This document shows positions 2,530 to 59,779 of a stretch of 64,000 bases of DNA, piece after piece. Position 1 is the stretch's first letter, and each line of letters starts with the position of its first letter. Source of the DNA: Undaria pinnatifida (Eukaryota > Sar > Phaeophyceae > Laminariales > Alariaceae); the NCBI GenBank assembly GCA_012845835.1, contig JABAKD010000028.1:1743501-1807500 (forward strand). Direction: 5' to 3'. The notes below the pieces were generated by a model. That model ran no database searches, had not been told where the DNA came from, and saw only the letters and a program-made list of their open reading frames with translations. The translations under genes and the position numbers were made by a program.

Positions 2530-2956
2530 CTCATTGGTGCGGTACCTCGCCCGATAACATAACCTGTTTTATAGTGGGACCCCGAAATATCCTGAGATAG
2601 CGCAGTACACCTTAAGACGAGGTCGTGAGCCGTGACCAGCGATTATCACCGCACTAAGCTTGGGCCCGCAGTACAAAAGGGTATCGGACTCACGCAGGAA
2701 GGTCCTGATAGGCGATTTTCATCGCGCTATACTGGGGTCCCGCGGTAATGGGTACCGTACTATCGTGGGACCACGACTGCATTGATATTAATACAGGTAC
2801 ATGCTCCCTTTTGTATCCGTCTTTCGCGCCTCGAAGGTTGCGGGTTGACCATACTCAAGTGCCACCCCGCGCTAGAGGGTACCGCACTAGCACAGGACCA
2901 GGATAGCATTTTTACTACTGGATGCTTGCTTCGTTCCCGTGTTTCGTGCCTCGAAG
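2530..2956. repeat. Degenerate direct repeats before CobW exon 2
   Basis: Phrases built on 'ggtaccgcactag...gggacc...cgattatcaccgc' recur at about 2540, 2640, 2750 and 2880, and again near 56370-56460 before the last exon of the other gene. The final repeat carries the splice acceptor of CobW exon 2. The one before it (2800-2850) carries a decayed copy of that acceptor and of the first bases of the exon (CGCGCCTCGAAGGTTGCGGG against CGTGCCTCGAAGGTTGCCGG). Confidence 0.6.
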
Positions 2957-3094
2957 GTTGCCGGGTCGTCAAATGAGCTAGGAGAGGAGGAGGAAGGGGA
3001 TGAGGTTGACCGACGTATTCCGATCACCCTCATCAGCGGTTTCCTTGGGGCTGGCAAGACGTCTCTCTTGCAAAGCCTGCTCAAGAATCGGGAG
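2957..3094 (+). CDS. CobW exon 2 (Walker A)
   Basis: Begins after CCTCGAAG and ends at CGGGAG|GTGGGG, phase 0. It encodes an acidic linker followed by RRIPITLISGFLGAGKTSLL, the beta-strand and P-loop typical of G3E GTPases. The acceptor is inferred from phase and a weak pyrimidine tract, so the 5' edge could be a few codons off. The donor is followed at once by a G run. Confidence 0.8.
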
Positions 3095-6000
3095 GTGGGG
3101 GGGGGGGGCACTATCCGTCGACAATTAGTACGAAGTTGTGCTGTCGCTTTGCTTCGTTTCTATTGGGTTTTTTTTGCTTCATGATTTTCTGCAGAACAGC
3201 AGTCCTCGTGATTTTTGTTCATACCGTGTAGAAGATGGTGACGTTACCTGCATGTCATGTTTGACATCAGTCGTGATGCCTTTTCTGCGCAACTTAACAA
3301 CAGCCAGTGGTCGCATCTATTGTTGCTGCACAACATGTTAAATAACCCGTCTTGATGATTTTTCTGCATAGCGTAGCTGTCATGACATTTTGCTGCTCCC
3401 CTGTTTTGCTGCTTCCCTATGTCGAACAAAACGAACGTGTTAAAAACGACTTTTCAGGGAGTTCGAATCGGCATGGTGGTGAACGATATGGCCGAGGTAA
3501 ACGTTGACGCCAAGCTTGTCCGCGACGACCCGAACTCGCAAGGAACCGGCGCTGACTCCGTCGAGCTCCAGAATGGCTGCATTTGCTGGTGAGTGGTGGG
3601 TGACTCCATCTTCCGCCGTTGATTGAGGGATCTCTTAATTCGTCGATTTTGGCGATTGGTTCATTTTTACGGTCGGTCGATGCGTCTATTGGTGGATTTG
3701 TTGATTGATCAATGGGTCGACTTGGCGATCCGTCGATTTGTCAAGTGGTCTATTGGTTGATTGGTCGATTGGATTGGTCTGTTGGTCTATTGGTCGATTG
3801 GTCGATAACGCATGCTATGGTTGAGGCGCACCTAATTTGTCTGGGGCTCTAAATATGAGGGGCGCTGCGCCTACTGTAGCCCGAAAGCTAACCTTGACAA
3901 AACAAGTTGAAAGTGCAACTCGATGAACAATGCCATGACCTAGGTATACGAGTATAACAAATGATAACGAGCGAATGCGAGTTTCTAATCTTGACGGCCA
4001 CACATTCTGACAGAAATTATGGTATGGCTTCCTCAAACAATCAGTTTGGGTTTTATGTCCCCGGGTTTTGCCCGTCAATGAAAAATAACACGAAACGGTG
4101 TCAACAAGCACCACAGCACGCACAATACCGGCCCAGTGCCGCGGACGTGTCGGCCTGAGTGTGCACACAGCAGTGCCTCTAATGGGCACCTCCCGAACAG
4201 CGTTCTTGGGACTCGCTGCTGTCTACTGATTTCCTTGTGGTGCGCAAGATGTCGACAAACCTACCTCGCGGCAGCCTCGATCCAAACACGGGCAGCAACA
4301 ACTCCGAGACAGCATTGTGCATCGCAAGCACCAGCCGACGCACGGAGGGAGACGGAGCGACTGCGGGGCGCGGCTAGATGGGAAGCCCTAAGCTACGTGT
4401 TCATGGTACGGTGGTGGTCATTGTACGGCGGTTTGCTGTGCTGTGGTGAATGATCGCGCGAAAACGCTTTGTTTTAAAAAAGGAGAGGGTTCTTTATCAC
4501 GCGGTACACATGTAGTATACCTAGCACCTTGTGCATACCAGGTACATGATACTTTCGCGCTGGAACATGCTGGCAGAGCCGCCTTAGCCTCCGACGTTGC
4601 TGTCGCCGCCACAGCTGATGCTGCTGCTGGGCTGGGCTGATGGTGCTGGTGCGGTAAATACATATTAATAGTACATTGTGCTGCTGCTGACGGTACCTGA
4701 TAAATACATGGAGGATTTTCCAGAGGTTGCGCGAGAGCAGCCGAAAGCTCCGATTCAGACCAGGTTTTCAGTGATCTTCGAGAAAACTCGAGCTGAGGTC
4801 CACCTCTCGGCGCGCTGTTTCCTGGGCGTGCCTCACCCTGCTCGTCTCTTCCGACCCTGCCATGATCGGCGTCGGTCGTGCTCGCGTCGTCTCTCTGCTG
4901 GGGGTGCTCTTTTTATTTTTTTTTGTCAAAAATTACCAAATTGTCTATTTTTACGTATAAATACCAAGCATTCTGCCCTGGTGATCATGTAAAACGAAAC
5001 GTGTGGTAAGATACTACAGTAGGTTGCGTCCCTTTTGAGTACGAGGTCAGGGGGTTAAATCCCAGCGGGCCCTTGCTTTGTTTTTTGTAGTCACGTAAAA
5101 CAACGTACACGAGTAGTTTTATGTCCCTTTTTAGTTATGAGTACCGGTATGCTGTCTGGGATTCAATTCCCACCGGAGCGCCTCAGTTTTTTTTTGTGTA
5201 CCGTTTTTTTCATCTCTTCTTTTTTGTTAGTCGCCGCCGTGTGTGATGCACAACAGGGAACCTGGACCTGATACGTTAACATTATACTGCTGTACGCTGC
5301 TGTACGACGTACGAGTATGTGTATATGCCCGTGATGTTTTTTTTTCGTGTAAAACAACGTAGTATGGTTAAAAAGTAGCTTGCGTCCCTTTTGAGTTGTG
5401 AGTACCGGTATGCAGTCTGGGGTTCAATTCCCACCGGACCGCTTCCGTTTTTTTTTGTGTGCCGTTTTTTTCATCTCTTCTTTTTGTTAGGCACCGTGTG
5501 AGGTTCACAACAGAGTACCTGCACCTGATGTGTTAATATTTCACTGCTGTACGCTGCATATGTACGACGTCCGAGATGTGTTTGTATCTGCCCGTGGTGT
5601 ATTTCTGCTGCTGCTGCTTCTCTGTGTTGCTATCTTGCTCTTGCTGCTGCTGCGGTGTGCTGCTGCTGTTCGTCATCGTGTGTGTGCCGGATGACGACAA
5701 TTGTTGCTGTGGTTCATTGCACCTAGCTAACAAAGCCATTTGTACTTTACCGCTTGGCAGTACTGTCGCATGTACAGCCTCGATTTACCTGTGATCCTGA
5801 ACTCATAATACATATCATGCATCTTCGAAAAATACGGGCAGGCGCGGAGCCAAGGCGGGTGGCAGCCCGCCGCGGCGAAGCCCCCCCTGGTATGCTGTAT
5901 ACCTGGTCTATACCACTTTGGGCGGAAGTATTGAAGGATCGTTTTGCATTTGTATTGATATGTTGGCGGTGTTGATATTTATGCCCATAGTGGTACGATA

Positions 6001-15000: not shown

Positions 15001-18000
15001 CTTTTGAATGTATATGACTCCTATGTATGTTGTCTATTCGTCACGAAGAGCTGACAAATAACAGCGACCTGATTCTCTTAGACGTAATGAGGTTTATACT
15101 ATGTCACGATTGAATACCAATTGTATTTTAAATATATTGGGTGGGGGAGACTCCTCGGTCAGAAAGCAAAATGATTTCGTAGAAGTCCCGCGCCTATCGT
15201 AGCTCGCGTCCGATGAGTCGCATGGCCGATTCATGGGGTGGTCGATTCGCCGATTGGTCGATTAGATTGGCTAGTGTCTGCTTCCCTTCGCTCGCCGCCC
15301 TTCGTCAAGCTAAAAAATGAAAACGTCGTGCCTTGCAGCTCGATGAGCCAAGAGCTGTTCGTGTCGGTGAACCAGTTGGTGGAGATGGGGGCAGCCAAGG
15401 GAACAAACTACGACCACGTCGTCATTGAGTCCAGCGGCATTTCCGAGCCGAAATCCGTGCGCTCTGTCTTCCAGGACGCGGAGTCGTACGGGATGAGGCT
15501 CTTGGACGAGGTACTTTTGTTTTGTTTTGTTTTTTCGAGTAAACTTTTTTTATTTGCGTCTTTGTCGGGTTTTTTTTTTTTTTTCTCGGTTTTGAGTTTT
15601 GAGTCGAATTTTCGGTTGGTTTGGTTTTTTCTAGTTGAGTTTTGTATTTTATTTATTTTATTGACTTTTTTCGATAGTTTTTTTCAATATCGGCCACGTC
15701 GTCATGAGTCCTGCGGCATTTCAGAGCCGAACTCCACCCAGCCTGTCTTTTTTTCAGGACGCAAAGTCGTACGGGATGAAGCTCATGGACGAAGGGCGGG
15801 CGGCGGCTCCTTTTTTTGTTTTTGTTTAGAGTGGTTTTCGAGTAATGCCTTTTAGTGAAATATCGGACAGTTGTGTGTTTTTTCGATTGTCATATTCCGA
15901 TTGAACTGTATTACGTTTAGGTGCAGGCGTATGAAACGGGGGGGTGGCCCCTTTCGTCTTCTCTTATCCTGTCCCTTCTTCTAATCCCTCCCTCCCCCGT
16001 CTATTCCCCTTCCATGACCCAGGTGCGACTGGACACGATGGTGACGGTCGTGGACGCGGGAGCGTTTTTGGCGGCGTACACGACGGGGGACCGAATGATG
16101 CAACGCCCCGACCTCGGCGTGAAAGGTGAGATCATAAATATACATTTTGTGGGGCTGTGCCCCTGGCAGGTTCTCAGTGGTAAAGTACTCGTGAGAAAGT
16201 TCCGTGCTGCTGCTGCAGCGCTGACAAAGTCAGTCGCACGCGGCGAACCAGATAAAGGAGTCCTGCCCACAACGCCAATGTGGGGCTTGCCCCTGGCAGG
16301 TCCTCTCTTGTGTGGTTGTATTGTGGCGGACACACCGAGGTGGGTTGGTACCTCGGGTCAGCGCGGAACGGTGTCTGGTGGCCCTCTGGTGACCTTGAAT
16401 TTGTGTGTAATGAGGCGGTACTGTCTACGGGAAGGGGGCCTGGTATCCACCATTTTTCTTTATTATTCTTGTCATAATACCTGGTACCTAGTACTGGTAT
16501 GTAGTTACGCCAGCTTTAAAGTTGTTTCGACCGATTGATCATTTTATCGATACATTAGCGTTGCAAGCTGCGTGATGCGTTGGCCGCGGTTGTTGTACAC
16601 TCCTCGTGAAGGGGATAGGTGGGTGACTCTCGTCGAAACTTTCCTGGATACTCTACGGTGTTTTCTTGTATGTAACCGAGGTGCCAAACCTTCCACCTTC
16701 ACCTTCCTCCACCGCTGTGCTGTGGCAATGATTCCCAACCCCCGCCTCCCCGTATTGCTAGTCTGTGGAATCGGAACTAAGCTTTCTCTTTGTGCTGAGC
16801 TGTGGCGTCGGTGCCAGACTTTCCCCTATCGCTTCGCTGCGCTGTGGCATCTGTGGAAAATCTCAACCATGGCCTATCGCTGTGTTGTGGCATTGGTGCC
16901 AAACGTCTCCCTCACCCTATCGCTGTCATGTGGCATCGGTACGAAATCTCAACAAGTCTCTACTTATCGCTGTGCTGTAGCATCGATGCCAAACCTCAAC
17001 TGTCCCATTTCGCTGTACCATGGCATCGGTACGAAACCTCCACTGTTCTCTATCGCTTTGCTCTGGCGTCGGTTCCAAAACCTTCCTCCTTCCCCTCGTA
17101 TTGCTGTATTGTGGCCGCTCGGTGCTGACACCTTCCCCTACGCTACCGTTTTGTGGGTTTGTGTATGTGTATTATTCACATTAAACTGTTCATTGCACAC
17201 ATCGACATGCAGAACACCCAGTACTCGAGGCAGCGATATACACGATGCAAGGGTAGAGGTTAGGGCTTAAAGCCACGGGGGGACCAAAGCGTCCCTTGGT
17301 CCCCGGTGACTCTAATATGTAGATGTTTTATCACAACAGTAAAAAACAAGACTACGTTAACACGCTGCGTTTAGAACTTCGGCTGGTTCGTGGCTTAGGG
17401 TTAGGCTACACCAGGGTCAAGAGTGCTTCATCCACAAATGCTGTGAGTCTCTTCAGATTGGTTTCCTTCCGGTTCTCAGCAGAGGTCCACACCTCGACTT
17501 TGAGGCGCTGCAATGATGAAATTTGGGGTACACAAAACGAGACAAAAAAACGATCCCTAACTGAACGTGTGCACTTCACTAGCGGGCAGCTACAGCCCCC
17601 CACAAGCAACCACGGCCCGCGAAACTGAGGGACGCTCCTGGTGGGGTGTATGACGACGTCGGGTGCGCCAGACAGCAGTCGTAGGCAGCCAGGAGCAACT
17701 CGCGAGATATTTTCGTGATTTCGAACTTGTGAGCCAGCAACACCAAAAGCTCCCGAAATCGCTGAAATATTTCAAGTCACGCGCGGGAGCCTAATACGAT
17801 GGGTACATCACCGATGAAAAAACATTTTTCACCAAAAGCTTGCTGCTCGCCAGGCGGATGATATAGCTCTTCTCGAGTCGTAGGAGAAAAGTCTGAGGCA
17901 AACAGTAAGTCATGCCTGTGAGGGGCAGGAAGTTATGGAGTTCAAAAAGAGGCTGAAAACACCTGAAAAACTCTCTATTATTGGATATTTGCAGCAGTTT

Positions 18001-21000
18001 TTCTAAACTTTGGAATCGAAATAAGGATCTCGGTTGGAAATGCCATACTCTATTTTCAAGTGGTTATATATACGCGAAATGCCTCCATACGGGCTCCTAC
18101 TCAAAATATTCCCGTGGAATCCCCCGTGGCCCTAAAGTTGAGTATGTTTCAAGGCTATTTTGTGAAGGCTGGGCCAAGTTGTAAACACGCCTCCACCGCC
18201 CCACGACCGTTACTCCCCATTCCCTCCCCACCCCAGAGGATGATCCCGCTTTCCAGCAGTCTATGGTGGAGGGCGGTGGAGCCCAAAGGGCGGTTGTGGA
18301 CCTTCTCGTGGAGCAGGTGGGTCTCCATTATTTGTATTTGTTAATAGTGGCGCGTGGCGGGTAAAATCTGTATTATGAGTTCGAAAAATCGAAAATGCCA
18401 AGCCTATGCTCAGTAACGATATTTTAAGACTGCAAAGAGCCGGTCGGTAATGGGCAAACGGCCTTGACTGGAAGGCTGTTTGATAACGAGACACCTCGGT
18501 AAAGACTGGGACGGATTCAATAGTAGTGGGTCGTGGGAATTTTCCACGAACGTTTTTTAATGTGTGTAATAGTACAGCAGTAGTAATAGCGATGGGAGCA
18601 AGTATCCCTGTGCAAACGACTTCATGGACCCGTGAGTACCTGAGCCTTGGTTTGTGGGGAAAACCCTTTTGAACTTATCTCCTTCAGAACTGCGAAAATT
18701 ATCCCAAATTAATTCCATGTAGTTTTTCCCGCCATTGTGGGTGCGTTACTAAAGGAAAGCGTGACGAGCGCAAATGACGAGCCCCCACTCCCCTTCCCCC
18801 CACTCCCTTCCCCTCCGTCTCTGCAACCCTGCCGTACCGCGGAAGGTGGAGTGCGCGGACGTGCTGGTGCTGAACAAGATGGACACTATTGACGAAGACA
18901 AGCAGGAACTCCTCACAGAGGTGAGTGCGTGCGGTGCGCATCTACTCGTGCTGTGTCTACCTCCGCCTCCTTCCCCCCTTAGACGGAACAAACATGGGGC
19001 TATTTTGACCCCCCCCCTCTCGTTTTTATGTCTTGATGACGGTGGTGTCGTCTCTCTGGGGTGTAGATACTATAGTTTTAATAGTGTCAGTGTGTCCTAA
19101 AAACAAATATTCACAATTAAATATCCCACTCCTTAATTGCGATATTAAGAGTATCGTACGGTGTCCTAAAAATAATTTTAAATGTCCCTTTCTTTTTTAA
19201 CTGCCAGTTACCAGGTACTTTTTACATAAGAGCCACCCACCTACCGCCCCACCGCCCCACTACCCCATCGCTCCCGGTAGATCTTGCTGGCGCTGAATCC
19301 CCACGCTAGGGTCATCGGCTGCACATACGGCAACATCGGGCTGCAAGGTAACGCGCGAGTTAGAAGAAACAAAACGTTTTCGTTCCCTTTTGCGACTCTT
19401 TATATTGTTGTCCGGGCCAGAAGGTTGTCATGCAATACACGGCGGGCCGATTCGCCTTTCGCCTTTCCTCCGCCCCCATGATTTCTGGGGCCATGAATTG
19501 GATGGGCTTGACAGCTTCGAGGTAGTTTTTGGTTGGGGGGCTAGGTATGCCGACCACCTGACGTTTGTATTTTGTATCTCTCGATATGAAATACATGACC
19601 AACCATAAATGCACCAGTCAGATAGATACACAAGCGCAGAACTCTGGACACTACCTCAGTTCACTAACTGTTGATACGTAGCCAACCAATAAGTAGTCGT
19701 CGACTGAAAAGAACTAGCTAAGAACTAGTGGGCGACTTGTAGCTAGTCTGTCAACTCACAAAAAAGCCCTGCCGATTGCGGGTTCGTATTGCCGAGAGCG
19801 CGCGCTTTAGCCGGGCTCACCCACCACACGATACGACGACTTCGCCGGCGGATGATTCTCGTATATACCAGGTATACGAAACGTACGAGCTTTGTTTTAT
19901 ACACAAATGTCGCCTCTCAAATAGTGTTTTTGTTACGTACTCTATTTTGACAGACGCCGATCAAGGGATCGAGGATGCCCGCCCCCCGTGACTCTTTTTT
20001 TCTCTGGGGCGAATTCGTTTCACACAGAGAAGGCGGCTTACAAGCCGCCTTCTCAGAGTTTTTGTTTTTCACCACTGCCCCCTCCAACTCCACCCCCCCC
20101 CCCCCCTGTCCGCGTGCCTCCTCCAACTCCACCCCCAATCCCCCGCCACCACCGACACAAAGAGGTACTCGGCGTGATGAACGGGCAAGGAGTGGCGGAT
20201 TCCGGCACCATTGACGACCACAAAGACGTCATCTCAGCGCTCGAGTCAGCCTCCGCAACCGCAGCTGCAACCCCGCCAGCAACAGAGGTCGCTAGTGATA
20301 CTCACGCGCATGAGCACGAGCACACGCACGCCCACGGTCACGAGGAGCCGGACTCGAACGGCGGGATTTGCCAGGAAGTGGCTGAGGCGAAGGCAGGGAC
20401 GGCTGGGGGTGACCACAGCAGCAGCAGCCACAGTCATTCTCACAGCCATGCGCATAGCGACGACCACGCGCACGATGGGGGGCAGGAGTACGACCCGGAC
20501 TGCGCGAAGTGCAACGAGGAGGGTCACGGGCATGTGAGAGCACGGGGGGGGGGGAGGGGGAAGAGGGGGGCATTTGACTCCTGCATATTTGTAACGGGCT
20601 GATGCATTATTGTGTCCTGGGCCCTGTAGTCTGGGCCCTGTCAATGTTTCCTTCAGTCCTGAAATCTGTAGTCTACTGTCTCAGCTTGTTAACTGCGTCC
20701 TGGGTGCTGTGGTTTCAGCGTAGTGCATGTGTCCTGGATCCTGTGGTCTAACTTCTCGGCTTGTTGCCCGTGTTACCAGTTTGTTGTCTTTGTCCTGAGC
20801 CCTGCCCAGTGACCTACATTCTCAACTTATTTTCGATGTCCTGAGCCCTATGGCGTATTTTCTCAGCTTGCGGTCTGTGCCCTGAATCCTATGGACTACG
20901 TTTTCAGCTTACTGTCTTGTGCCCTGGACGCTTTTGTCCGTTTTCTCAGCTTTTAGCCTTGCACCCTAAGTCCTGTGCTCTATTATCTCAGCTTAAAAAT

Positions 21001-24000
21001 CTGCAACGTGGACCGTGTGATTCATATTTCTCAGTTATTGTTGTCTACTTTGTCGGTGTTGATCATCTGTGTCCTGGACCCTGCTGTATATTTTATCGGA
21101 TTGTCTTGCTTGGGTCATGGACCCTGAATTCCCAACGAGAGCAACCCTATCTTCATGCCCCATCTCGCCTTGCTTGTGTCGACCCCTGCTGTTGACTGCT
21201 CCGGCGGCAGGACCATTCTCACAGCCACGGTCACAACGAGGTCGGGGACGGTGCGATGACGGTCTGCTTTATTTTTCAGCTTGCCTTGCTTATGTTGTAG
21301 ACCCTGGGTCCCTAGCGAGAGCTAACTTATCATGCCTTAAAACCTGCTCAATTTTTAGCTCCTTTCTAACAAGATCTACCCTACCTTATTGCGTTCTGCA
21401 CATGTTTAGCTTCTAACGAAGGCTACCCTACGCTACAGCCGTTTGCTTTCTTCTTCAGCTTGTCTTGCTTGCGTCTCGGACGCTGACTCCCTAGCGAAAG
21501 CTACCCCACCTTTGCGTTTTAGCTTACCTTGTTTGTGTCGTGGACCCTATTGTTTGCCCCGGCGGCAGGACCATTCTCACAGCCATGGTCACAATGACGT
21601 CGGGGATGGGACGACGACGGCGGCCAAGCGGTTCGGCATCGACAACTTCGTGTACCGACAGCGGAGGCCGTTCCACCCCGAGCGGCTGCAGAATGTTTTG
21701 AAGGTGAGGTGGTGCTGGCATACGCTACTGCATGTGTTACAGATGCTATCAACCCCTTTCGGGTTATGAACGGAAACAGGGGAGAAAACGTAACGAATAC
21801 GGCACCGCCCATACCAAGCACCCGGGCTGGTATTAATAAAGGATTTGCCTAACATTCAAGGTGAAGACGTGCTGAAGGTGAGCTAGTGCTGGCATGCTCT
21901 ACAGCACGTTCCGTGCAACACGGAAAGTAACACCTCCCCTGGGATGAACTTCCGAGACGCATGTCTCCGACACCAGGGGGGGGCACATGCACCGAAATTC
22001 ATCTCATCGTAAAGAGCTCATCGATATTTTTCATTAAACGCATCGCTCGGCGTTTGCACTCTCCTCGTCGTAAAGAAAAATAGGTTGAAATGTCGTCCGA
22101 GGGGCTATGTTATCCGGCGTGTTGTTCGGTATACGACAGATGCTACAGCAGTAGAAACCTTTTTAGGGTCTTTAAAAGGAAAACAAGGTCGAAAACAAGG
22201 CGCGACATTTGCGTCGGCCACACGAAGCGGCCCGGGCTGCAAGGATAGGGCGTGTGCCCGAACTGCAGCGAAAGGAATTTTACGACACATGCGCAGCATA
22301 TTAATACTTGTACTGGTGGACTCTCTTGCTAGACGGGCGATTAAACCCCGTTTCTCGCCTTTTAAGGTGCCAGGCCTGGGTCCCAACAAGGATCAATCTT
22401 TTAGGGCGTTTCATTTCAAGTCGTGAGTGTTGCTTGTTTTTCTGAAGCGCGACGGAAAGTGGCGTGTTGCCCCTTTCGCTCCAACTGCCTCTCGTCCCAA
22501 CAAGGGATCAATCTTTTAGGGCGTTTCATTTCAAGTCGTGAGTGTTGTTTGTTTTTCTGGAGCGCGCGACGGAAAGTGGCGTGTTGCCCCTTTCGCTCCA
22601 ACTGCCTCTCGCTCTAACTGCCTTTCGCTCCAACTGTGTGTGACCTGATTCAAAAGCGGTTCAAACTGAACCAATGAACTTCAACGCTTGCACAAGTCTG
22701 TGCTTGCGTATTATCTGACACATGGAAGGGGTTGCTGTCCTGAAGGCGTGCCGGCGCTTGCTCGAGGCATCATGATATATTCTGCGCGGCGAACAAAGGA
22801 GAATCGCTGTAGGCGCCGTCGCTTTGTTGAGGACTGACACGTCTCCATTTTCCGTACAAACGGCCGGTGTAGGCGCTCCGTCAACTCTCTCGTGTGTCTT
22901 AGTATATCCCTTCATTTCCGCTTTTTTTTTCGGCTTTCTCCGATTACTCCAATTTTTCCGAGTTTTTCGAGATTTTTTCCACCTTTTCTTCCCGTTTTTT
23001 GTCCAAAACAAAAACATCCCAAACTTTTCCGTTTACTTTCGGCACGGGGTGAAAATACTGCTGGGACGTCGTACTCGGCTTATACCCACGCTAGCGCTCT
23101 CGGAAATGGCGGCGGGTGCCGATGTTTATGATTTTTTCGAGTGTTTTCGATGTGTTTTCCACCTTTCTTTCATTTTGTTTTAGCCCAAAAGTTTTTGCCC
23201 TAAAACACTTTTTTCTTTATTTCCCCCCCTGTGTTCTTTCCGCGCGTACTGCTGGAACGTCGCTTGCAGCTCATGCCTACGTCGGCGAATCTAGCGCTCT
23301 CGGAGGTTGCGGATGCGAAGGGAGTGGCGGCGGGTGGGGGTGGGGGCGAGGGCGGGGAGGAGGCCGTTCGCGCGGCGCTCGGGAAGCTGGTGCGGTCGAA
23401 GGGGTTCATGTGGCTCGCCTTCAGTGACAAGGCCGCCATGTACTGGTCTCACGCCGGTAAGGGTCCTTTTAGGGCTGGGAGTTGGCTAGACTCTCTGGCT
23501 AGCTACTTGTTGGGGGATCTGGGGGTCTGGGTCTGGGGTTTGGGGGGGGTGAGGGAGGGTTGAGGGGGGGAAGTTGGAAGGGTTGCCCGCGTCAGACAGA
23601 TATCGGACAGATCAGCGATCCCCACTTAGTTTAAAACTTTCAGGGAAGATCGTATGGTCTAGCTCATGTTGCCGGGTGAGAGCCGTACGATCTGCATGAT
23701 CTAGCACATGATTTCCTGGGTTTGATCGGTACTCTAGTCTATATGCAGAACCTGCACCACATCTCAACGGCAAATGTCGAATCTACCACCTGCGGATGGT
23801 CTAGATCGTGATCTGACTCATGTGTGAAGGGTTGAGTGGAGTTGGTTTGGGGGGCGGGGAGCGAAGGGGCTAGGGTGCGGATTTCTGGTTGTTTGCACCT
23901 GACCGGTGTAATTGTGGCTGTGTGGTATTGCAGAAGGAGTTTGCTGTCCATGTTCTCTGCGTCTGCCAATCGTTTCCTGGTTGTACTAACTTTATGAATA

Positions 24001-33680: not shown

Positions 33681-33689
33681 CGTTTACTA

Positions 33690-35990: not shown

Positions 35991-35999
35991 GTGTAGCAG

Positions 36000-38900: not shown

Positions 38901-41620
38901 CGCCGCCAGATTCGGAACATATTCGGAACATACAAACGCATATAATCTCCACCGATATTCTACTGCTATAGCCCGACGCCATCTAAAGCCCCTGTCACAC
39001 ACAAAACCAACCCCGACGACACAATCAATGAAACACCACCGGCATTCAGAGCTACAGCATGTGTTGTGTCTTCAAGGCAACATTCACACAGAACGTCGCC
39101 GGTATATCGGAACTGCCAATGAACACTTCACTTCCTAGTATTGTGCGAAACAAAATACTACCCGCGGCGGACCGCGCGACTACCCGCCAAATGAATAGCG
39201 TTTCTCGTTATTTTATATGACAGGCGGAGCTACCCAGATCCCAATATCAAAGTTGAGTAGGAGCGAGGCGTCCTGTCTTCTTGCCGCGTCAACGCCGGTG
39301 CCATTTACAAAAAAGAACACCCGTGGAAACTACCAAGACAAGAGGATCGATTGCACGACGTCAATGTGCAGCGTTTGGCGTCGTGCGTTGGATCCTCTAG
39401 CGTGGTAGGTCCCGAGGGTGCTCTTTTGGAAACTAAGACAGCAGCGTTGATGCGGCGGGAAGCGGAGAGGGCGGTTCCCTAGCCCTTGGCTTTAATCCGG
39501 GGATGTGGGTAAATCCGCCTCTCGCCTTAACCCTTTTACAACTGCAAGACATGGACCCAATCGAATTTCAAGTACTCTGTCCCCGAAAACATGGGTCCAG
39601 TTCTTCGGCGGTAAAGTCGCGAGATAAACTAACAAGGGCATTGGGTAAAGACGCTGCCCGTCGAGGTTTGTGCTGGTACAACACTAAACATTTCCAGTGT
39701 TCACTGGCGTTTCCAATTGTGGGTGACGTTTGGTGTGGATGGTGTAATACCTACTGTAGCTGCGGATGTCGGTAGTGCTGTTGTTGGTATTGTCTTGGGG
39801 GTTAGTTAGCGGACGACAGGGCTGTCTCTGGGACTGGAACTAATGAAGAAGAGCGCCGGGGTTGTTCGAGATGGACATTTACACCTTCCGCCCCTAACAT
39901 CGTCACGGAGGTTCGCCTGCAGTATGGCCCAGATGATGGGTTGATATCGGGCACTTCTTGGGCTACGGTCATAAATTTGTTTCCGTACTTGCAGCCTCAA
40001 CTATTATTAAGAGGTCAGCTTCCTACCACAGGTAGTTCTTATGTGAAACTCCAAGCGACATTACCAACCCATCATTGGGGCTGTACGGCAGGTGAAACCC
40101 CGTGGCGCCGTTATCGGCGATCGCGAGCAACACCCGTACTCAACTTCTATAGTTCAACTCCTCATCTCACGCAGATCGATTGCGAAGAGAATATTATCAA
40201 ACCCACTCACGACCACCGGAGGTACAGCACGATTCACTACCCCTACTGTAGCTGCGGTTGTCGTTGGTTTTTTTTTAGTCATATTATCTTGGGGGCTGGT
40301 TTGCACGTGACACAGTTGTCAGTGGGGGGTCGAGACATGTATGTAAGTAGAGTCCCGGTGATGCTCGCGATGAGCGTTTGCAAATTTCGTCAGTAACGGT
40401 GCCACGGGGTTGCATTTGCCGTACAGCCATGGTGGGTTGGCATTGAACGTCTCTAGGGCTAGCGTCACAAACTTGTGTTTGTAATTACAGCTTCTATTGC
40501 AAGGCTTGCTTCCCACCGAAAACAGTTCTCGTGTACGTTTCCAACCGACAATACCAAACCATCACCATGGGCTGTACGACAGGCGAAACTCCGCGGCGCC
40601 GTCATCGGCGAAACATATTAACATCTACTGCGAGCAAAGTCCTTACGCTTCTATGGTGCGACTCCCACTCACAAGCTGTCTCACGCCAACGAATCCCGCA
40701 GCGTACGTCGACAAAGTCACGTCTGACAACCGGAGATATAGCAGGCATTGTCCCTTCAAGACAACATCGGCGATGTTTCGTGTGGATGTTGGGGGGAAGA
40801 TGCAGTACCTACTGCTGTAGATGCGGTTGTCAATAGTGGCATTGTTGATATTCTCTTGGGGGTTGGTTTGCAGGTGACAGTGTTACCCGTAGGACTTGGA
40901 CTAAAGCATTAGGGTACGGGTGTTTCTGGCGATTGGCGTTGATATGTCCCGACGTTAACAGCGCCACGGAGTTTCGCCTCCCGTACAGCATAATGATGGG
41001 TTTATATTGCGCGTTTCTTGGTCTACCCCGCAAACAACGTATGGCCACTTACAGCCTATTGTATTGGGCCTGCCTCCCACCAGAGGTAGCTCTCGTGCGC
41101 AACTCAGGCGCCAGAAATGCTGAATACCACGCTATCATCATGGGCTGTACGACAGGCGAAACTTCGTGGCGCCGTTACAGCCCGGAACACACAACGACCC
41201 ATCGCGAGCAACACCAGTCCTTTGCTTATACGGCCCGACTCCCACTGACAACCCTGTCACACGCACGGCGATGCCGAAGATAGTATCAATAAAACCTCCA
41301 CCGACAAGTTGCCATTTAGTGGCTTTGCTGATACTATCTTGGGGATTGGTTTGCGTGTGACAAGATTGCCAGATGGAGGTCGGGCTATAGAAGAAGTAGA
41401 ACACCGGTGTTGCTTGCAATGGGCGTTTGCATGTTTTGCCGTTGACGACGCCACGGAGTTTTTCCTGCCGTGCAATCCTGATGATGGATTGGTGTTGAGC
41501 GTTTCATTGGCCAGTGTCACAAACTCGTGCTCATATATACAGCCGGAATTACGGCGCCTAGAGGTAGTTCTCATGTGGGCCATGAGCTCCAAGTAACAAT
41601 TTGTACAGGTACTATCGTAT
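36000..41620. repeat. Array of about ten palindromic (fold-back) units
   Basis: Each unit of roughly 500-600 bp reads arm, spacer, inverted arm. The arm runs ...GGTGACAGGGTTGTCAGTGG, TAGAGTACCGGTGTTG, GGCGCCACGGAGTTTCGCC, TACAGCCCTGATGATGGGTT. The spacer holds CTTACAGCCTCTTTTACGAG and CTTCCCACCAGAGGTAG. The arm then returns reversed, starting AACCCATCATCAGGGCTGTA. Spacers lie near 36130, 36615, 37190, 37680, 38295, 38785, 39990, 40490, 41050 and 41535. Neighbouring units also meet at short palindromes such as CACCACCGACAA/TTGTCGGTGGTG (37440, 38090). Copies differ by point changes; no reading frame is kept. Confidence 0.9.
39060..39800. repeat. Block within the palindromic array, copy 2
   Basis: Divergent partner of 35250-35990. 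It interrupts the palindromic array after the sixth unit, giving a higher-order period of about 3.8 kb. Confidence 0.6.
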
Positions 41621-43186: not shown

Positions 43187-43690
43187 ACGGGTCATGACCC
43201 AACCCGCGGGTCGGGTCAAGGGGGTTTCAAAATCTCGCGGGTCGGGTCGGGTCGGGTCAAAACGTTTCAAAATGTTACGGGTCGGTCGGGTCGGGTCGGG
43301 TCAAGAGGTTTCAAAATCTCGCGGGTCGAGTCTGGTCGGGTCAATAGTGTTCAAAATATCGCGGGTCGGGCCAGGTCGGGTCGGGCCAGGTCGGGTCGGG
43401 TCAGGTCGGGTCGGGTCAAGAGGTTTCAAAATCTCACGAGTCGGGTCGGGTCGGGTCAAGAGGCTTTCAAAATCTCGCGGGTCAGGTCGGGCTATGACCC
43501 GCGAGATACAGGTCACTCGCGGGTCAAGCCCCCATGACCCGCGGGTTATTTTTGGCTGACCCGCGGGTCGAACCCAATCTGGCCTGCGTATTCGCCTTTT
43601 TCAAACTTATAGCTGCCTGCCGGAGGGTCCATGCCGTGCCGTCGCCTCGCAGGTCGGGCCCGCGGATCCGACCCGCGGGTCCGAAAATGA
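43187..43690. repeat. GGGTC array, copy 2
   Basis: Opens with CGGGTCATGACCCAACCCGC, a near-palindrome, then repeats GGGTCGGGTC with spacers of the type AAGAGGTTTCAAAATCTCGC, and closes with oppositely oriented GACCCGCGGGTC blocks. Same family as 1458-2268. Confidence 0.85.
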
Positions 43691-44990: not shown

Positions 44991-45239
44991 CAGCTCTAGA
45001 AATTTCTCATACCAGTACGAAATGTGACCAAACATAAAAAGGCAAGGGCAGTCGTCGTCGAAGCAGCAGCAGCAGCACTGGCAACAGCAAGCACCAGCAG
45101 AGGACCCCGGATCCTCGCGGATCGCAGCCCCTGCTGACAGATCCACCGCCCCAGTTGTGGGCTTGCTGCCAGAAGCGGCTCAGCTAGGCTGCTTGCTGGG
45201 GCCGGAGACTGCATACGATACGTAGATAAATAGATAGAG

Positions 45240-45322
<83 letters not shown>

Positions 45323-45390
45323 CAGATAGATAGATAGATAGATAGATAGACTAGATAGATAGATAGACTAGATAGATAGATAGATGGACG

Positions 45391-45464
<74 letters not shown>

Positions 45465-45571
45465 ATATATGGACAGATAGATAGATAGATGGATAGATTC
45501 GTAGATAGATATATAGATAGATGGATGGATAGATTCGTAGATAGATGTATATCTAGATAGATAGGTAGATG

Positions 45572-45663
<92 letters not shown>

Positions 45664-46185: not shown

Positions 46186-46556
46186 AGATATATCACGGGT
46201 CCAGTCGACTCGACCCGCATGAACCCGCACCTCACGGGTCACTCGGAGTGTGGCGGGTCGGGTCGGGTCGGGTCAACAGGCTTTCAACATCTCGCGGGTC
46301 GGATCGGGTCGGGTCAGGAGGTTTTCAAAACCTCACGGGTCGGGTTGGGTCGGGTCAAGAGGTTTTAAAATCTCGTGGGTCGGGTCGGGTCCGGTCAAGA
46401 CGTCTCGAAATTCTCGCAGGTCGGGTCGGGTCCGGTCAAGACGTCTCGAATTCTCGCGGGTCGGGTCGGGTCAGCTGACCACTGACTCGACCCGACCTGA
46501 CCCGACCCGATGCGACCCGACCCGACCGGCGAGATTTGACCTGACCCGTGAAAAGC
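46186..46556. repeat. GGGTC array, copy 3
   Basis: About six units of GGGTCGGGTC plus AT-richer spacer, flipping at GGTCAGCTGACC (near 46473) into GACCCGACCC and ending CCCGTGAAAAGCCCTG. Its two ends are inverted relative to each other, as in copies 1 and 2. Confidence 0.85.
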
Positions 46557-48058: not shown

Positions 48059-48403
48059 ATGTCCAAAGTCTCCTCAACACTGGCCTTATGTCTTGCTCGT
48101 ACGACAGCAGCACTCTTGCTGGCAATGCTCGTCGTTTCCACTGCGGAAGCATTCATACCCGCCGCCACCACCACCACCAGGACAGCGCGGTCATCAGCCC
48201 CCAACCTTGCCAGTACCGACCGTCAGTTCTCCTCTCGATTTCCCTCGAGGATGTCGGCGGAGGTGGGAGATCTAGAAGGCACCGTTGCGGTCGTAACGGG
48301 GTCGTCTCGCGGCATTGGCAAGGGGATAGCGATTACCCTCGGGCAGCGTGGATGCACCGTGTACGTTACGGGCAGGTCTGCGGGAGGCACCACGACGGAA
48401 CAG
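48059..48403 (+). CDS. SDR exon 1 (pre-sequence and cofactor motif)
   Basis: ATG at 48059; donor GAACAG|GTGAGC, phase 0. It carries the signal peptide, the Ser/Thr-rich transit-like stretch and VAVVTGSSRGIGKGIA. A second Met at residue 65 (MSAEVGDLEG) sits just before the fold and could give an untargeted form. Confidence 0.92.
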
Positions 48404-54079: not shown

Positions 54080-54152
<73 letters not shown>

Positions 54153-56720
54153 ATTTGTTGTTGTTGTTGTTGCTGCTGCTGCGGTCGTCGTTGTTGTTTC
54201 TGTCCTCCAGGGTGGCCATTACTGACGGTCTGGCGGTTCCTCGTCCCCTGTTGTCCCCCCCCCCCCCCCCCTTTCCCGAAGAGCTGGAGGAAGAAAACGT
54301 AGCCGTGGTATCGCTGTACCCAGGAATCGTGGTAACGGAAAAGATGGACAGCCTCATGAAAACCCCTGATGTTTTTGAAGAGAAGGTGAGAGGAGGAGGG
54401 CGAGAGGGGGGGAGGGAGTGGAGCAAGGGGGGGAAGGGGTGGGGAGAAGGGAGAGAGGGAGGGGTGGAAGGGGGGAGAGAGGAAAGAAAGGAAGGAGGGA
54501 GGGAAAAAAGGACGGAGGGAGGGAGGGAAGGAGAGACAGAGAGAGGAGGTGAGGGAGGGAGGGTCGGAGGCTGGGAGGGAGGGAGGGAGGGAGGGAGGGA
54601 GGGAGGGAGGGAGGGAGGGAGGGAGGGAGGGAGGGAGGGAGGGAGCGAGGGAGGGGCGGAGGGAGGGAGGGACGGAGAGAGGGAGGGACGGACGGTGGGT
54701 AGATGGCTATTACTTCACGACCGGACTTCTGACGATGGGCGTTATTTTACGTCCGAAAAAATGAGCGTTGAAAATGTCTTGACGCCGAAAAAATGAAAGT
54801 TGGACAACTTTTACGACCGAATCTTCTAGCGTTGGACGTTCGTCCACCACCGAAACTTTCTAAAGGTAGACGGCAGTTTCTTCCGGCCGAAAAATCTACG
54901 TAACGTCGGACATTTTTCAAGACCGAAAGTTCCAATGTTGGACGTTTGCTTCACCACAGACGCTGCGTACCTGGTATGGTTCTAAGATCTAAAAAGTGAA
55001 ACGTTTAACAGTTTCGTGGACGGTAGTCTACAACTGAAAATCATATCGATTGCGGCGGGCCCCAGTCTTTGCTGGCCTCGCTAGTCTGGGGCGAACACAC
55101 AAGGCCTGCTACTATAGGGGTAATCATTTTTTGGTTGAAGCGTTTTCTGGACGACGGGGCTCCTTAACCCCTTCAGAGCCCCTAAACCCCTCCCCACACC
55201 AATTCCGAGCAATTTTGTCCCCGAAACGGATGTCCAGTTGTAAAGGCGTTAACCCCAAAACGTGGGAAATTATGCTCTTGCTTTGCACCATGTTCCGGTA
55301 TATACGCAGGGTATGGGAGTGTTCGTCGGGCAGAAGCTTTTTTTGTTCTCCAGATCAGGTTTTCGGGTATCGTGTTGAGGCTCAGAAAATATAGGATGCA
55401 TCTCTACCGTAGGAAACGTTACACAGCGCATGAACAACAGGCGGAGTGGGGTAGCTCATATTAACCCCTCTAGCGCTATAGAGGGGTAACACGTCGAACA
55501 TATCTAATTGACGATTGCAGCATTTTGCAACACCAAGCAGCTGGGGCTGCCGGGGTACATGGGTGGGACAAGGGTCCAAAGAGCAGTGTAGGGAGATGTA
55601 AGACAAGCCCGCAGCATGATTATACTTGTATTGTGTTGCTGGCGTGGGTCGCTGCTGCGTTTACGGGCACCCCTATATGTTATCTGCTACGGTAGTAAGT
55701 GCCTCGTGCTGTTCATTGTCCACCGATCGATGTATTGTTTCGTTGCCCCGTCTCGATATTTTTAACGGCAGACCGGTATTCCGATGTGCTCTCCCATGGA
55801 GACCCCCTTCTTCACGGGCCGTGCGGTCGCGGCTCTCGCCGCGGATGAAGGCATCATGAAGAAGACGGGGAAGGTAGACGGTTTGGGGTGTCGGGGATGG
55901 GTCGGTGTCTGTGCGCTGAGGAGGAGGCTGGGTCCGCGTTTTTGTTTGTTCGCTGTTCTTCTTTTGTCTCTCGCTGTTTTTCTGCGTTCGCTTTTGTTTT
56001 GATGGTGGATGAGAGTCACGAAATATGCAAACTGGCAAAGACTACTTATGGTACGCGCCATGCCTACTCACCGATGAAATGCGTAGGCAGGTGAAGAACA
56101 TGGGCGTGTACCCTGGATCGGAGACCTGTCTTTCCATACCCACCTCCCCCCAACGCTTGTCGTTGAAAGCCCGACGTACTCCGTCCAGGAGTTGTTGTGG
56201 TGCGACGGTCTATGGGCATACGACTACGGCTATGAATGAAACGAGTACGCCTCCCCAACGCGCTTTTCTCCTTCGCTGTATAGTCGCAGTACCTTGTCAG
56301 TGCAGTGCCTTGCCAGGTAACCACACTAAGACGAGACGCTCAACTGGAATATCCCGGGATATGATAGTTTGATACTCTGTAAGACGAGGTCGGTCGAAAC
56401 AAGCGAATATTCACCGCAATACACCAGGACTCCGCGCTAACGGGTACCAGGTGCCGCACTAACACTAACCCCGGGCGACGACTGTGTCTGCTTGTTTTGC
56501 TGGCGACCAGGTGCACGTGGTGGCGGAGTTGGCGAAAGAGTACAGCTTCGACGACGTCGACGGCGGCCGCCCCCCCTCCATCCGAAGCCTCCGGTTCCTC
56601 CTCCCGACTTACCTGTTCCCGAAGGTGTTGCCGCCGAAGGGCGCCAAGGTGGCGGCATCATTCGTGCCTAATTGGCTCCTGCCGATGGATATCATGCGCG
56701 GTGGGAAACCCTCGTCGTGA
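48059..56720 (+). CDS. Short-chain dehydrogenase/reductase, DHRS1-like, probably plastid-targeted
   Basis: Eight exons: 48059-48403, 48737-48832, 49577-49693, 50423-50577, 50967-51031, 54282-54385, 55772-55873, 56511-56720. They join in phase into 397 codons from ATG to TGA. Residues 1-31 form a signal peptide with a hydrophobic core (LLLAMLVVSTAEA), then FIPA and a Ser/Thr/Arg-rich stretch to about 65, the layout of bipartite plastid pre-sequences in algae with secondary plastids. The Rossmann fold follows: TGSSRGIG 80-87, NNA 167-169, catalytic Ser230, YGVGK with Tyr243 and Lys247, then SLYPGIVVTE near 269-278 and a TGRAVAALA helix. These last features resemble DHRS1. The enzyme should use NAD(P)H to reduce a carbonyl; substrate unknown. 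It is longer than animal DHRS1 (about 310 residues) by the pre-sequence and a C-terminal tail. Confidence 0.92.
48737..48832 (+). CDS. SDR exon 2, with GC donor
   Basis: Acceptor TCCTGCAG|GAAC. It ends GCGCAG|GCAAGA, a GC-AG intron donor, phase 0. It encodes ELGGTLEETAAAIDAAGG and VACDHADDAQ, where the Asp follows the second-cofactor strand. No usable GT lies nearby in the right phase. Confidence 0.88.
48833..49576 (+). other. SDR intron 2, GC-AG type
   Basis: Starts GCAAGAG and ends CTCTCTAG. The +1 to +6 bases after CAG fit the strong flanking consensus that GC donors need. No repeat structure is evident. Confidence 0.85.
49577..49693 (+). CDS. SDR exon 3 (NNA motif)
   Basis: Acceptor CTCTAG|GTCA, donor CAAGGG|GTGAGG. 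It encodes KLDVLVNNAFTLGPG and TKFWKQG; the NNA motif and the Phe/Trp insert are DHRS1-like. Confidence 0.92.
50000..50385. repeat. SDR intron 3 minisatellite
   Basis: About a dozen units of 25-30 bp, CACAAGGATYGCCTACCGAC-like, with CCGCCCGCC spacers. It makes open frames in two phases but no protein is meant. Confidence 0.8.
50423..50577 (+). CDS. SDR exon 4 (catalytic Ser)
   Basis: Acceptor CCCTCAG|GCAA, donor TATAC|GTAAGA, phase 2. It encodes LMTVGLRSHYMASCFAAPLI and IACVSSFGGLTY. The donor is followed by a polypurine G/A tract to about 50745. Confidence 0.92.
50580..50745. repeat. Polypurine tract
   Basis: Almost pure G/A on the + strand, including a G run of about 20 near 50615-50632, directly after an exon donor. 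Confidence 0.85.
50967..51031 (+). CDS. SDR exon 5 (YxxxK)
   Basis: Acceptor ACGTCAG|ATTT, donor GATCG|GTAAGG, phase 1. It encodes FNVAYGVGKAGVDRLVKDMA, carrying the catalytic Tyr and Lys. Confidence 0.93.
51100..53880. repeat. TAACATWATGTTA palindrome array
   Basis: Dozens of copies of the near-palindrome TAACATWATGTTA and of GTAACAC/GTGTTAG are spread through the intron. Between 51340 and 52100 they are set in a longer period of about 245 bp with landmarks ACGTACATGSYSAATTAAACG and GTGGCTATCGTAACACGCGTT. A second, looser set runs 53050-53880. The density is far above chance, and no reading frame is kept. Confidence 0.9.
52760..52935. repeat. 50-bp tandem with internal hairpin
   Basis: Four units carry CTGCTGTTTTCGGCACATAT and ATGTGCTGGTACCGCACAGC; GCACATATATGTGC can fold. 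Confidence 0.75.
54080..54170. repeat. GTT microsatellite
   Basis: (GTT)n of about 30 units just before the acceptor of SDR exon 6. It makes poly-Val, poly-Leu and poly-Cys frames of no meaning. Confidence 0.9.
54282..54385 (+). CDS. SDR exon 6
   Basis: The acceptor after TTTCCCGAAG is chosen by phase and by the family's sequence. Donor GAGAAG|GTGAGA. It encodes LEEENVAVVSLYPGIVVTEK and the helix after it. Confidence 0.9.
54386..54700. repeat. Polypurine GGGA tract
   Basis: Directly after the exon 6 donor: G/A-only sequence with a long (GGGA)n core at about 54575-54645. The long Gly-Arg-Glu open frames here are artefacts. Confidence 0.88.
54720..55770. other. Rest of SDR intron 6
   Basis: 54720-54960 holds degenerate 40-45-bp repeats with GTTGGACGTT and GACCGAAA. 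55060-55440 is a dispersed repeat shared with 59040-59350 (landmarks AAGGCCTGCTACTATAG, GACGGGGCTCCTTAACCCC, TTCTCCAGATCAGGTTTTCG). The remainder is unrecognised. Confidence 0.65.
55772..55873 (+). CDS. SDR exon 7
   Basis: Acceptor AACGGCAG|ACC, donor GGGAAG|GTAGAC, phase 0. It encodes SPMETPFFTGRAVAALAADE and GIMKKTGK, matching the 'E-S-P-x-F-T-G-R' helix of DHRS1-type enzymes. Confidence 0.92.
56511..56720 (+). CDS. SDR exon 8 with stop
   Basis: Acceptor GCGACCAG|GTGC. It encodes VHVVAELAKEYSFDDVDGGR, then an extra tail with SLRFLLPTYLFPKVLPPKG and MDIMRGGKPSS before TGA. Confidence 0.9.
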   Translation: MHVVAELAKEYSFDDVDGGRPPSIRSLRFLLPTYLFPKVLPPKGAKVAASFVPNWLLPMDIMRGGKPSS

Positions 56721-56853
56721 TGATCTAGTGAGGCCTTCGACTGCCTGCGGTGAAGGTTCGATTGCGTGAGGGGCCGGTGGCGAAAAATGAGGCGTTTGGG
56801 GCGGGGGGGTTTGACATCCACATGGCGTTCTTTGCTCTGTTTTTGTTGTTTTC

Positions 56854-57300
56854 TTGCCGAAGGGCGTCGAGGTGCCGGCGACATCCGCGCCTAGTTGTCT
56901 CCTGCTGATGGGTGTTATGCGCGGTGGAAAGCCGCCGTCGTAATGATGCCCCCGGCAGGTGTTTCGTCCCCCTGCGGGACCACAAAATGAGGCGTTTTTG
57001 GCGGGGTTTTAGACATCCACATAATGCTTTTTGCGCTGTTTTTGTCGTTGTCTTGCTATAGGGCGTCGAGGTGTCGGCACCCCCCCGCGCTGGATTGGCT
57101 TCTGCTGATGGATGTCGTGCGCGGTGGGAGGCCGCCGTCGTGATGAAGCCCCGGTGGGGTTTCGACCGCTTGTGGGGGCGCAAAATCAGGTGTTTTGTTG
57201 GGGGGGGGGGGAGTCGACGTCCATACGGCATTTTTTGCTCTGTTCTGTTGCTGTCCGCGATTGGCTGCTGCCGATGGAGCCAAGGCTATGGTGAGCGGGG
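56854..57300 (+). pseudogene. Tandem ghost copies of SDR exon 8 end
   Basis: Two fuller copies (56854-56946 and 57053-57145) and a stub (57255-57290) repeat the last 90 coding bases and the following 3' UTR, with a period of about 200 bp. Landmarks are GCCGAAGGGCGTCGAGGTG, CTCCTGCTGATGGGTGT, ATGCGCGGTGGAAAGCCGCC and GACATCCACATGGCGTTCTT. The second copy has a one-base shift relative to the real exon. Some copies keep an AG just before GGCGTCGAG. Confidence 0.88.
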
Positions 57301-57324
57301 GGCGGGGGGGGTTCTCAGTTTTGC

Positions 57325-57495
57325 ATGGCCGTAGTCGTATGACCATAGACCCTCGCATCCCTACTATGTCGGGACGGAGCACGTCGAGTTTTCACCAACC
57401 AGGCAGACATTGCTTGCACCAAGCGCGAAGCGCCGTTGCGTGTTCGGCGAGTCGCATTAATGGTGAACTGCATCCTTCCAAGAACCGCTCGTAAG
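57325..57495. repeat. Dispersed repeat, copy B
   Basis: Partner of 7555-7735; same orientation. Confidence 0.8.
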
Positions 57496-57499
57496 ACGG

Positions 57500-58745
57500 A
57501 CTTCGGCACCTTGTACCTACTTTCTTGCTTATGGATGACAGCGCCAATGCGTTACTTTGTTTTCTGGTGTGGCCACTCGAGAGACGGCAATGGGTATTAC
57601 TACGTAATTGCCTCGTGGGTGCCTTACCATACTCACACTACGTGATACGATCATTCCCCTTGTACGGAGTTAGGATTCTCCACCTCGCACAAAATGATCT
57701 AACTCGGTAACCATGAAGGTGACCGCCAAAAAAGAAAACAAAGAAAACGGTACCCTGGTTGTCTAGCTCACGCAGTGACTGGCAGGTTTTACAGCGTCGT
57801 TGCCAACCAATCCAACGCCAACCCCATTGTAAATATAATGTTTTACGGCGTCGGTGCCAACCGAGGCCAACTATTATATCTATGGTGAGGGGGGTAAGTG
57901 GGGGAGGGGTACTCATATATTGCTCGCCTTGGCCATTTGACCATTGATCACTGTTAGTTATAGAGCACTATCCACTAGACTACTTAGTAACAGCAGTGAC
58001 TCAGTGGTCTACTGTTGGTGGATAGTGCTATTTAACCAACATGCGTGTGTCGTAGGTTCGAATCTCACCGACTTCGTATTTATTATTTTTAAGGCGTGCG
58101 CGCTTGAGAACATTATGAATAGTCATGATAGTGTATTCCTATTAATAAACACTTATCCAGTGGTGAGGGGAGGTCCCCGGAGATCCATGCTGGCGAGATC
58201 GGTGCTACAAGCTCCAAAGTTGCATTTTTGTTAGTTATACAGCACTAACACTAGACATATGACTGAGTGGTCTAGCAGTCCTATATAACTAACAATCACG
58301 GTGCCATTCGACACGGCGCATTTACGGCGAGGGGAGGGGGGGGCGTACCCATTTGTTGCTTGCCTTAAGTCGTATGTCCATTGATCATGCATGCCTTTCG
58401 AGATAGCACTTACCATGAGGGGAAAAGCGTACCCACTTGTTGCTTGTCTTAGGCACGTGACCATTGGGCACGCGTTTTTACTTCTCGATCGAGATCATTG
58501 GAACACCGTTCCTACTTCTAATAAATGATACCTCCAACATTTGAGCGCTCATTACTTTTTCTTCCATATATAACACAGAGGGGCTCTTTATTTCCGCGGC
58601 CGAGGGTCACTAGCGCGATTGGCTACTGGCTACACTTTCTCGCGATACAGTGGGAACCCCGATTTAAGAGTGCCCCTGACAAGCCGAAACAAACGCTCTT
58701 CACTACGCATTGCTCTGATCTGTAGTGGGCAATATAAAGCTTTTA
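57500..58745. other. Downstream region with short fold-backs
   Basis: GTTAGTTATACAGCACT...TATATAACTAAC (58211-58290) is an inverted repeat. A related, longer fold-back at 57953-58035 contains CAGTGGTCTACTGTTGG and is followed by GGTTCGAATCTCACCGAC (58056-58073), a good B-box look-alike. No intact tRNA cloverleaf could be built. Phrases near 57895 and 58330 (GAGGGGWGGGGGGG) also repeat. Confidence 0.5.
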
Positions 58746-58746
58746 G

Positions 58747-59007
58747 TACTGACGGGACATGCCGATTTGACCGCGTACTGACGGGACATGCCGATTTGAC
58801 CGTGTACTGACGGGACATGCCGATTTGACCGCGTACTGACGGGACATGCCGATTTGACCGCGTACTGACGGGACATGCCGATTTGACCGCGTACTGACGG
58901 GACATGCCGATTTGACCGCGTACTGACGGGACATGCCGATTTGACCGCGTACTGACGGGACATGCCGATTTGACCGCGTACTGACGGGACATGTCGATTT
59001 GACCGCG
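58747..59007. repeat. 29-bp minisatellite, nine copies
   Basis: TACTGACGGGACATGCCGAT plus TTGACCGCG repeats nine times with two single-base variants. The unit is not a multiple of three and has no spacers. Confidence 0.95.
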
Positions 59008-59039
59008 CTCTTTAAGTGCCGAACGCTCTTACCCTGGGC

Positions 59040-59350
59040 TCTCTTTTAAACGGGGGTACGAGGCCTGCTACGATAGAGATGGCAGTTTTCGTCGAAATTA
59101 TTTCTGAATGACGGGGCTCCTTAACCCCAAATCGTCGGAATTAGGCCATTATTTTGCACGATTATCGTCGTGTACCTCGGCCATGGGATGTTTTATCCGG
59201 TAGCAGTTTTTAGTTCTCCAAATCAGTTTTCGGGAGAGGTCTTAAGCTCCCGAATTGAGGGGTAGTATTAGAAAAAAACGTGGTGCACCTCTATCGTAGC
59301 ACGCGTCGTAACCCACTGCATGCGCTACGCCAACAAATAGTTTGGAACTC
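59040..59350. repeat. Dispersed repeat shared with SDR intron 6
   Basis: Divergent partner of 55060-55440 in the same orientation: GAGGCCTGCTACGATAGAG, GACGGGGCTCCTTAACCCC, TTCTCCAAATCAGTTTTCGG, then TGCACCTCTATCGTAG. Confidence 0.7.
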
Positions 59351-59440
59351 CGTTCTGACTGAGGGTAGGGCCGCTCGCTCGATTTTTGTCGTGGACTAAT
59401 CCATGTAGTGAGCACGGGAGTACCTCCCCCTACCGTAGCT

Positions 59441-59720
59441 TGGGGAATGGATGTCATGCGCGGTGGGAGGCCGGGGAGGTGATGATGCCGTGTGGGGTTT
59501 CGACTGCCTACGGGGCCGTGGATGAGACGTTTTTCGGGTGGGGAACCCATGTTCACACGGCTTTGTTTGCATTTTTTTTTTCTTGGGGGGGGGGGTGACA
59601 TTCACACGTTTTGTTGTGCGTTCTTTTTGTTTTGTACTCCGACGGGTGTCATGTGCGGTGGGAAGCCGCCGTCGTGATGATGCGGTGGAGGTTTCGATTG
59701 CATACGGGCTTCGCTAAGAT
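59441..59720 (+). pseudogene. Two further ghost copies of SDR exon 8 end
   Basis: GGATGTCATGCGCGGTGGGA (59448) and GGTGTCATGTGCGGTGGGAA (59644), each followed by the same GATGATG...GGTTTCGA UTR phrase, show that the tandem of exon-end copies once reached or jumped about 2.7 kb beyond the gene. Confidence 0.75.
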
Positions 59721-59779
59721 AGACGTTTCTTTTGGGGGTGGTAAGTTTGGTATAGATGAACGGCGTTTTTTATCATTGT

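Follow-up and report, generated by a model that had tools for sequence, protein, structure and literature searches.

Short tandem duplication as the probable source of decayed exon-edge copies in the genome of Undaria pinnatifida

Exons of two genes in a 64,000-nucleotide stretch of the Undaria pinnatifida genome (hereafter the window) are accompanied by decayed copies of their own edges, here called ghosts. These ghosts are very probably the product of ordinary short tandem duplication that is frequent, blind to exon edges and followed by ordinary mutational decay. This explanation is supported by the direct orientation of the copies, the lack of dispersed ghost copies among the genome matches listed, their random placement relative to exons, the continuum of identities and the pattern of decay. 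The genome holding the window comprises 511,146,479 bases in 68 contigs, with a G+C content of about 51% and long introns.

Peptides joined from the exons of the first gene matched the Pfam families cobW (1.5e-42) and CobW_C (1e-16), and those of the second gene, designated SDR, matched adh_short (2.1e-28). Exon ends in the window were set by eye, which placed CobW exons 4, 10 and 11 at 15338..15509, 21569..21700 and 23270..23452, and the last SDR exon at 56492..56720, all on the + strand. A conserved CobW C-terminal exon (GAYGDRRQELVFIG...), overlooked in the earlier note, was located on the + strand at about 32918 to 33062 by motif search, sequence and the CobW_C match, with its ends likewise set by eye. 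The donor that closes it suggests that more exons lie beyond. The donor of CobW exon 12 was read by eye at about 24244, and the interval used for testing this exon (24143-24265) runs about 22 bp past it. Since the conserved C-terminal exon follows 8.6 kb downstream, the supposed CobW stop at about 24316 falls within an intron some 8.7 kb long. CobW exon 9 (20163-20533) carries a histidine-rich stretch, HSHSHSHAHSDDHAHD; histidine-rich loops are known in metal chaperones.

Each exon and its candidate copy were aligned locally and scored against 200 dinucleotide shuffles. Pairs were confirmed for CobW exons 4, 10 and 11 and for the last SDR exon, all on the same strand, with 61-82% identity and z scores of 21 to 43. 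For exon 4, positions 15411-15509 aligned with 15691-15792 (84 of 103 columns identical, 82%, z 36.6); this ghost (15691..15792, + strand) represents the 3' end of the exon, has lost the donor GT and shows three indel events in its exon part. The exon 10 pair, 21455-21620 against 21096-21262, gave the highest z score (127/170, 75%, z 43.1), and the ghost (21096..21262, + strand) holds upstream intron, the acceptor at about 21210 with its AG intact and 52 bp of the exon. The weakest of the confirmed pairs was that of exon 11, 23131-23316 against 22952-23119 (120/196, 61%, z 20.9), in which the ghost (22952..23119, + strand) covers upstream intron and the 5' part of the exon and the acceptor AG is gone.

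The earlier note, which had listed these ghosts from reading the sequence, was partly confirmed: its observation is largely correct, with two of the listed places wrong. One is CobW exon 2, where a pair does exist (2742-2845 against 2869-2966, 76/105, 72%, z 21.7), but both members are intronic. The upstream copy (2742..2845, + strand) begins with a dispersed repeat, window positions 2700-2792 matching 36 other places in the genome, and the downstream copy (2869..2966, + strand) stops short of the exon start, read by eye at about 2985; therefore no exon boundary was copied. The other is the tandem repeat said to start no more than 15 bases from the CobW stop, which does begin at 24320, but inside the intron described above.

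At the last SDR exon the copies form an array. Positions 56633-56823 aligned with 56856-57022 (131/191, 69%, z 30.4), and tandem ghosts of the coding end and 3' flank occupy 56856..57249 on the + strand in units of about 200 bp (period 200). Further ghosts lie at 59447..59785 on the + strand, identical to 56908-57249 in 223 of 366 columns (61%, z 30.6). The array is split by a dispersed high-copy repeat of about 590-655 bp (57297..57951, no strand assigned), for which at least 44 other matches were found, 43 of them within query positions 9-673, with 40 of 13,402 candidates scored; identity to most copies was 85-90% among the matches listed. A 29-bp unit repeated nine times with 98% matches was observed at 58746-59007.

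If a ghost drifts freely next to a constrained exon, the exon part of a pair should gather differences at roughly half the rate of the non-coding part, in which both members drift. In eight pairs, four from the window and four from three CCT (chaperonin) genes, 92 of 564 sites were mismatched in the exon parts versus 179 of 651 in the non-coding parts (Fisher 3.4e-6); the exon part was the less diverged in all eight, and the Jukes-Cantor ratio, calculated by hand, was about 1.9. A set of 15 CCT pairs from 14 exons, which includes the four CCT ghosts just mentioned, gave 141/836 versus 145/543 mismatches (P 1.3e-5), corresponding to distances of 0.19 and 0.33 and a ratio of 1.7. Six CCT pairs offered 20 or more sites in each part, and in all six the exon part was less diverged (Wilcoxon 0.031). 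One CCT pair runs the opposite way (5/31 exon versus 2/14 non-coding), with only 14 non-coding sites. By codon position, the mismatches numbered 23, 28 and 41 in the eight pairs (evenness P 0.059) and 37, 41 and 63 in the CCT pairs, a mild third-position excess that would be expected if the real exon adds silent changes. Ghosts decay like neutral copies beside a constrained exon.

Retention of the copies as alternative exons or splice sites under selection is very unlikely. The acceptor of the exon 10 ghost is intact and, when seven ghost splice edges were read by eye, five kept their dinucleotide, but neutral decay at about 15% per base by itself predicts about five of seven. The two edges that lost it belong to the ghosts of exons 4 and 11, which also carry indels, and the exon parts of the CCT ghosts contain 17 indel events. 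No copy with an open frame and both splice sites was found among the window ghosts, all of which are partial.

It is similarly improbable that the matches stem from insertion of mobile or dispersed repeats close to exons. Such repeats do account for part of the exon 2 pair, and one breaks up the SDR array, but the ghosts hold exon sequence of their own gene. A genome search with exon 4 and its ghost (15300-15972) gave no other match, nor did one with exon 10 and its ghost (20950-21760). The sole other match of 22900-23460 was to the coding part of exon 11 (23315-23395), the ghost part having none. For the SDR ghosts no dispersed copies were present among the matches listed (40 of 94 candidates scored), all other listed matches of this stretch falling at window 57270-57350, in the dispersed repeat at its far end. 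Because no dispersed copies of the exon 4, 10, 11 and SDR ghosts were listed, these are taken as local duplications. An introner or mobile-element origin of the four was not supported by the matches listed in these genome searches.

Local duplication extends well beyond these exons. As a self-BLAST of the whole window listed no near-diagonal repeats, an alignment of tiles was used instead. With 150-bp tiles and a score of 60, 145 of the 838 window tiles had a direct copy within the next kb and 55 an inverted one, as against none after shuffling; even at a score of 40 or more, 0 of 838 shuffled tiles had a copy, so local copies exceed chance. After masking of short-period repeats and at a score of 50, direct copies outnumbered inverted ones in the window (145/793 versus 63/793), in eight CCT regions on five other contigs (158/1453 versus 23/1453) and in ten random 4-kb pieces (29/362 versus 2/362). 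Besides the window, every one of the eight CCT regions and eight of the ten random pieces held direct copies, which were sparser in the random pieces than in the gene regions (29/362 versus 158/1453 for CCT). Inverted matches, fewer overall, are not rare in the window. Nine large imperfect palindromes lie at 36200-41505, each with about 185-475 columns aligned to its own reverse complement at 64-72% identity, and probably raise this count.

Merging of the alignments gave 190 events in 191 kb, or about one recognisable event per kb, with a spacing of 64-669 bp (5th to 95th percentile) and an identity of 59-94%. The aligned span reached at least 0.7 of the spacing in 89 of the 190 events; the other 101, for which a strict tandem origin is putative, fall short of full-length head-to-tail pairs and may have decayed or never adjoined. 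The continuous range of identities suggests a steady process, and this range would reflect a range of ages.

Other repeats were also observed in the window. A long TAGA tetranucleotide array of about 110 copies occupies 45223-45663. Related minisatellites built on CGGGTCGGGTCAAGAGGT... occur at 1498-2149, 43207-43491 and 46253-46472, up to 44 kb apart, and the minisatellite segment 1995-2167 matches 43208-43488. No Rfam family was matched in the window at gathering thresholds.

The earlier note had read the ghosts as the trace of short tandem duplications that strike exon edges throughout the genome. In support of a mechanism that targets exon edges, perhaps one tied to transcription or splicing, all ghosts in the decay comparisons reach an exon edge, and a direct copy within 1 kb accompanies 4 of 20 window exons and 14 of 69 CCT exons. 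The 69 CCT exons are the profile matches lying wholly inside the fetched regions, out of 82 at E ≤10 with 13 outside dropped; their edges are profile-match ends and not proven splice sites, and a few of the weaker matches may not be exons. Segments of non-exon sequence fared alike. At a score of 50, 66 of 237 window intron segments of like length had a direct copy and 7 of 237 an inverted one. In the CCT genes, 86 of 414 same-length non-exon segments had a direct copy and 18 an inverted one, versus no inverted copy at the 69 exons; a first CCT set had given 5 of 33 exons versus 46 of 198 segments. None of five proteasome exons examined (5 of the 30 matches listed, outside the 89-exon set below) had a ghost.

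A rotation test, in which exon positions were rotated 1000 times within each region so that the clustering of duplicates was kept, gave the same picture. For 89 exons at a score of 50, 24 edges were touched versus 24.2 +/- 3.7 expected, and 20 whole exons versus 22.5 +/- 3.6 (P of as few 0.30). At scores of 40, 60 and 80, the edges touched numbered 31, 17 and 10 versus 29.8, 19.4 and 12.8 expected. The first 53 exons gave 13 edges versus 16.0 +/- 3.4 and 10 whole exons versus 15.1 +/- 3.1 (P of as few 0.054), and five further settings for them agree in showing no edge excess. Duplicates covered 11.0% of 13,008 exon bases versus 16.3% of all 167,008 bases, a difference that may indicate mild avoidance of exon interiors.

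Exon edges are thus ordinary targets in this sample, without preference. With exons of about 150 bp, most duplications that touch one necessarily cross an edge, and a process aimed at edges is very unlikely. Of the claim in the earlier note, the widespread occurrence of short tandem duplication stands for the sampled parts and the singling out of edges does not: counted against controls, they show no excess, being no more often copied than random positions, an outcome that the note itself had named as refuting its claim. The impression of an edge effect would be one of ascertainment, because exons are recognisable and a ghost departs from its exon more slowly than two intronic copies depart from each other. 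Assembly error through mis-joined or collapsed haplotypes can practically be dismissed, the window pairs being only 61-82% identical and the events varying widely where allelic copies would be far closer, with the same pattern on other contigs.

Under ordinary short tandem duplication, short stretches would be copied head to tail, leaving copies mostly 60-670 bp apart, and a duplicated stretch would sometimes happen to span an exon edge. The copy still attached to the rest of the exon would then stay under selection, and the other would drift as a ghost within the intron or the 3' flank. Slippage or unequal exchange could then turn some copies into arrays. As to the initial event, there is about an even chance that the duplications originate in error-prone repair, with fill-in, of staggered double-strand breaks rather than in slippage or unequal exchange.

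About 16% of the sampled genic DNA lies in local duplicates (score 50), and about one fifth of the sampled conserved exons have a ghost. We tentatively propose, at somewhat less than even odds, that in this lineage short tandem duplication ranks among the leading sources of growth in introns and 3' flanks and that ghosts provide a built-in clock, since selection holds the exon copy while the ghost drifts. If true, this clock could allow both neutral divergence and the age of a duplication to be estimated from a single genome, with no need of an outgroup. Exons also act as unique markers of a process whose products might elsewhere be taken for dispersed repeats. Exon-edge tandem duplication has been put forward as a way in which new introns and alternative splice sites arise, and with copies of widely differing divergence at about one fifth of the sampled conserved exons, this genome would be a good place to gauge their rate of origin, lifetime and splicing. 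Gene predictors and human readers should expect exon-like intronic scraps here, some with intact acceptors or donors, which are not by themselves proof of alternative exons.

Boundary-crossing tandem duplication, taken as a direct nearby copy holding exon and intron, was found at CobW exons 4, 10 and 11, and at the SDR gene, where the copy takes in 3' flank instead of intron; direct copies at CCT exons amount to the 14 of 69 given above. Single cases, and intron gain by tandem duplication, have been reported (PMC4974935, PMC3443670, PMC2891723). In a potato RdRp gene, a tandem duplication across an intron-exon boundary is reported to have given a new, detected intron (PMC4974935); the structure is similar, but here the copy has decayed and any intron formation is putative. 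A review covers the gain of introns when an exon segment bearing AGGT is duplicated in tandem, and holds tandem duplication of gene parts to be widespread (PMC3443670). Such duplication is common to both, whereas the present copies lengthen introns already in place, or the 3' flank. Break repair by CST and Pol alpha-primase is described as forming small tandem duplications, mostly under 100 bp, at induced breaks in mouse and human cells (PMC8355091). As far as that description goes, these too are head to tail and need no pre-existing repeats, but most spacings here are longer than those duplications, and the junctions of the old events have decayed. Direct repeats near splice sites, described elsewhere as 4-30 bp pairs at both ends of one intron, were taken as insertion scars (PMC11782384); direct repeats near exon-intron borders are shared with the present case, in which longer copies of one edge are found instead. 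No entry among the literature matches listed, as far as their abstract openings show, reports copies at exon edges this dense within a single genome. The exon-edge tandem copies described here are of a known kind, and in this one genome they may stand out by their density.
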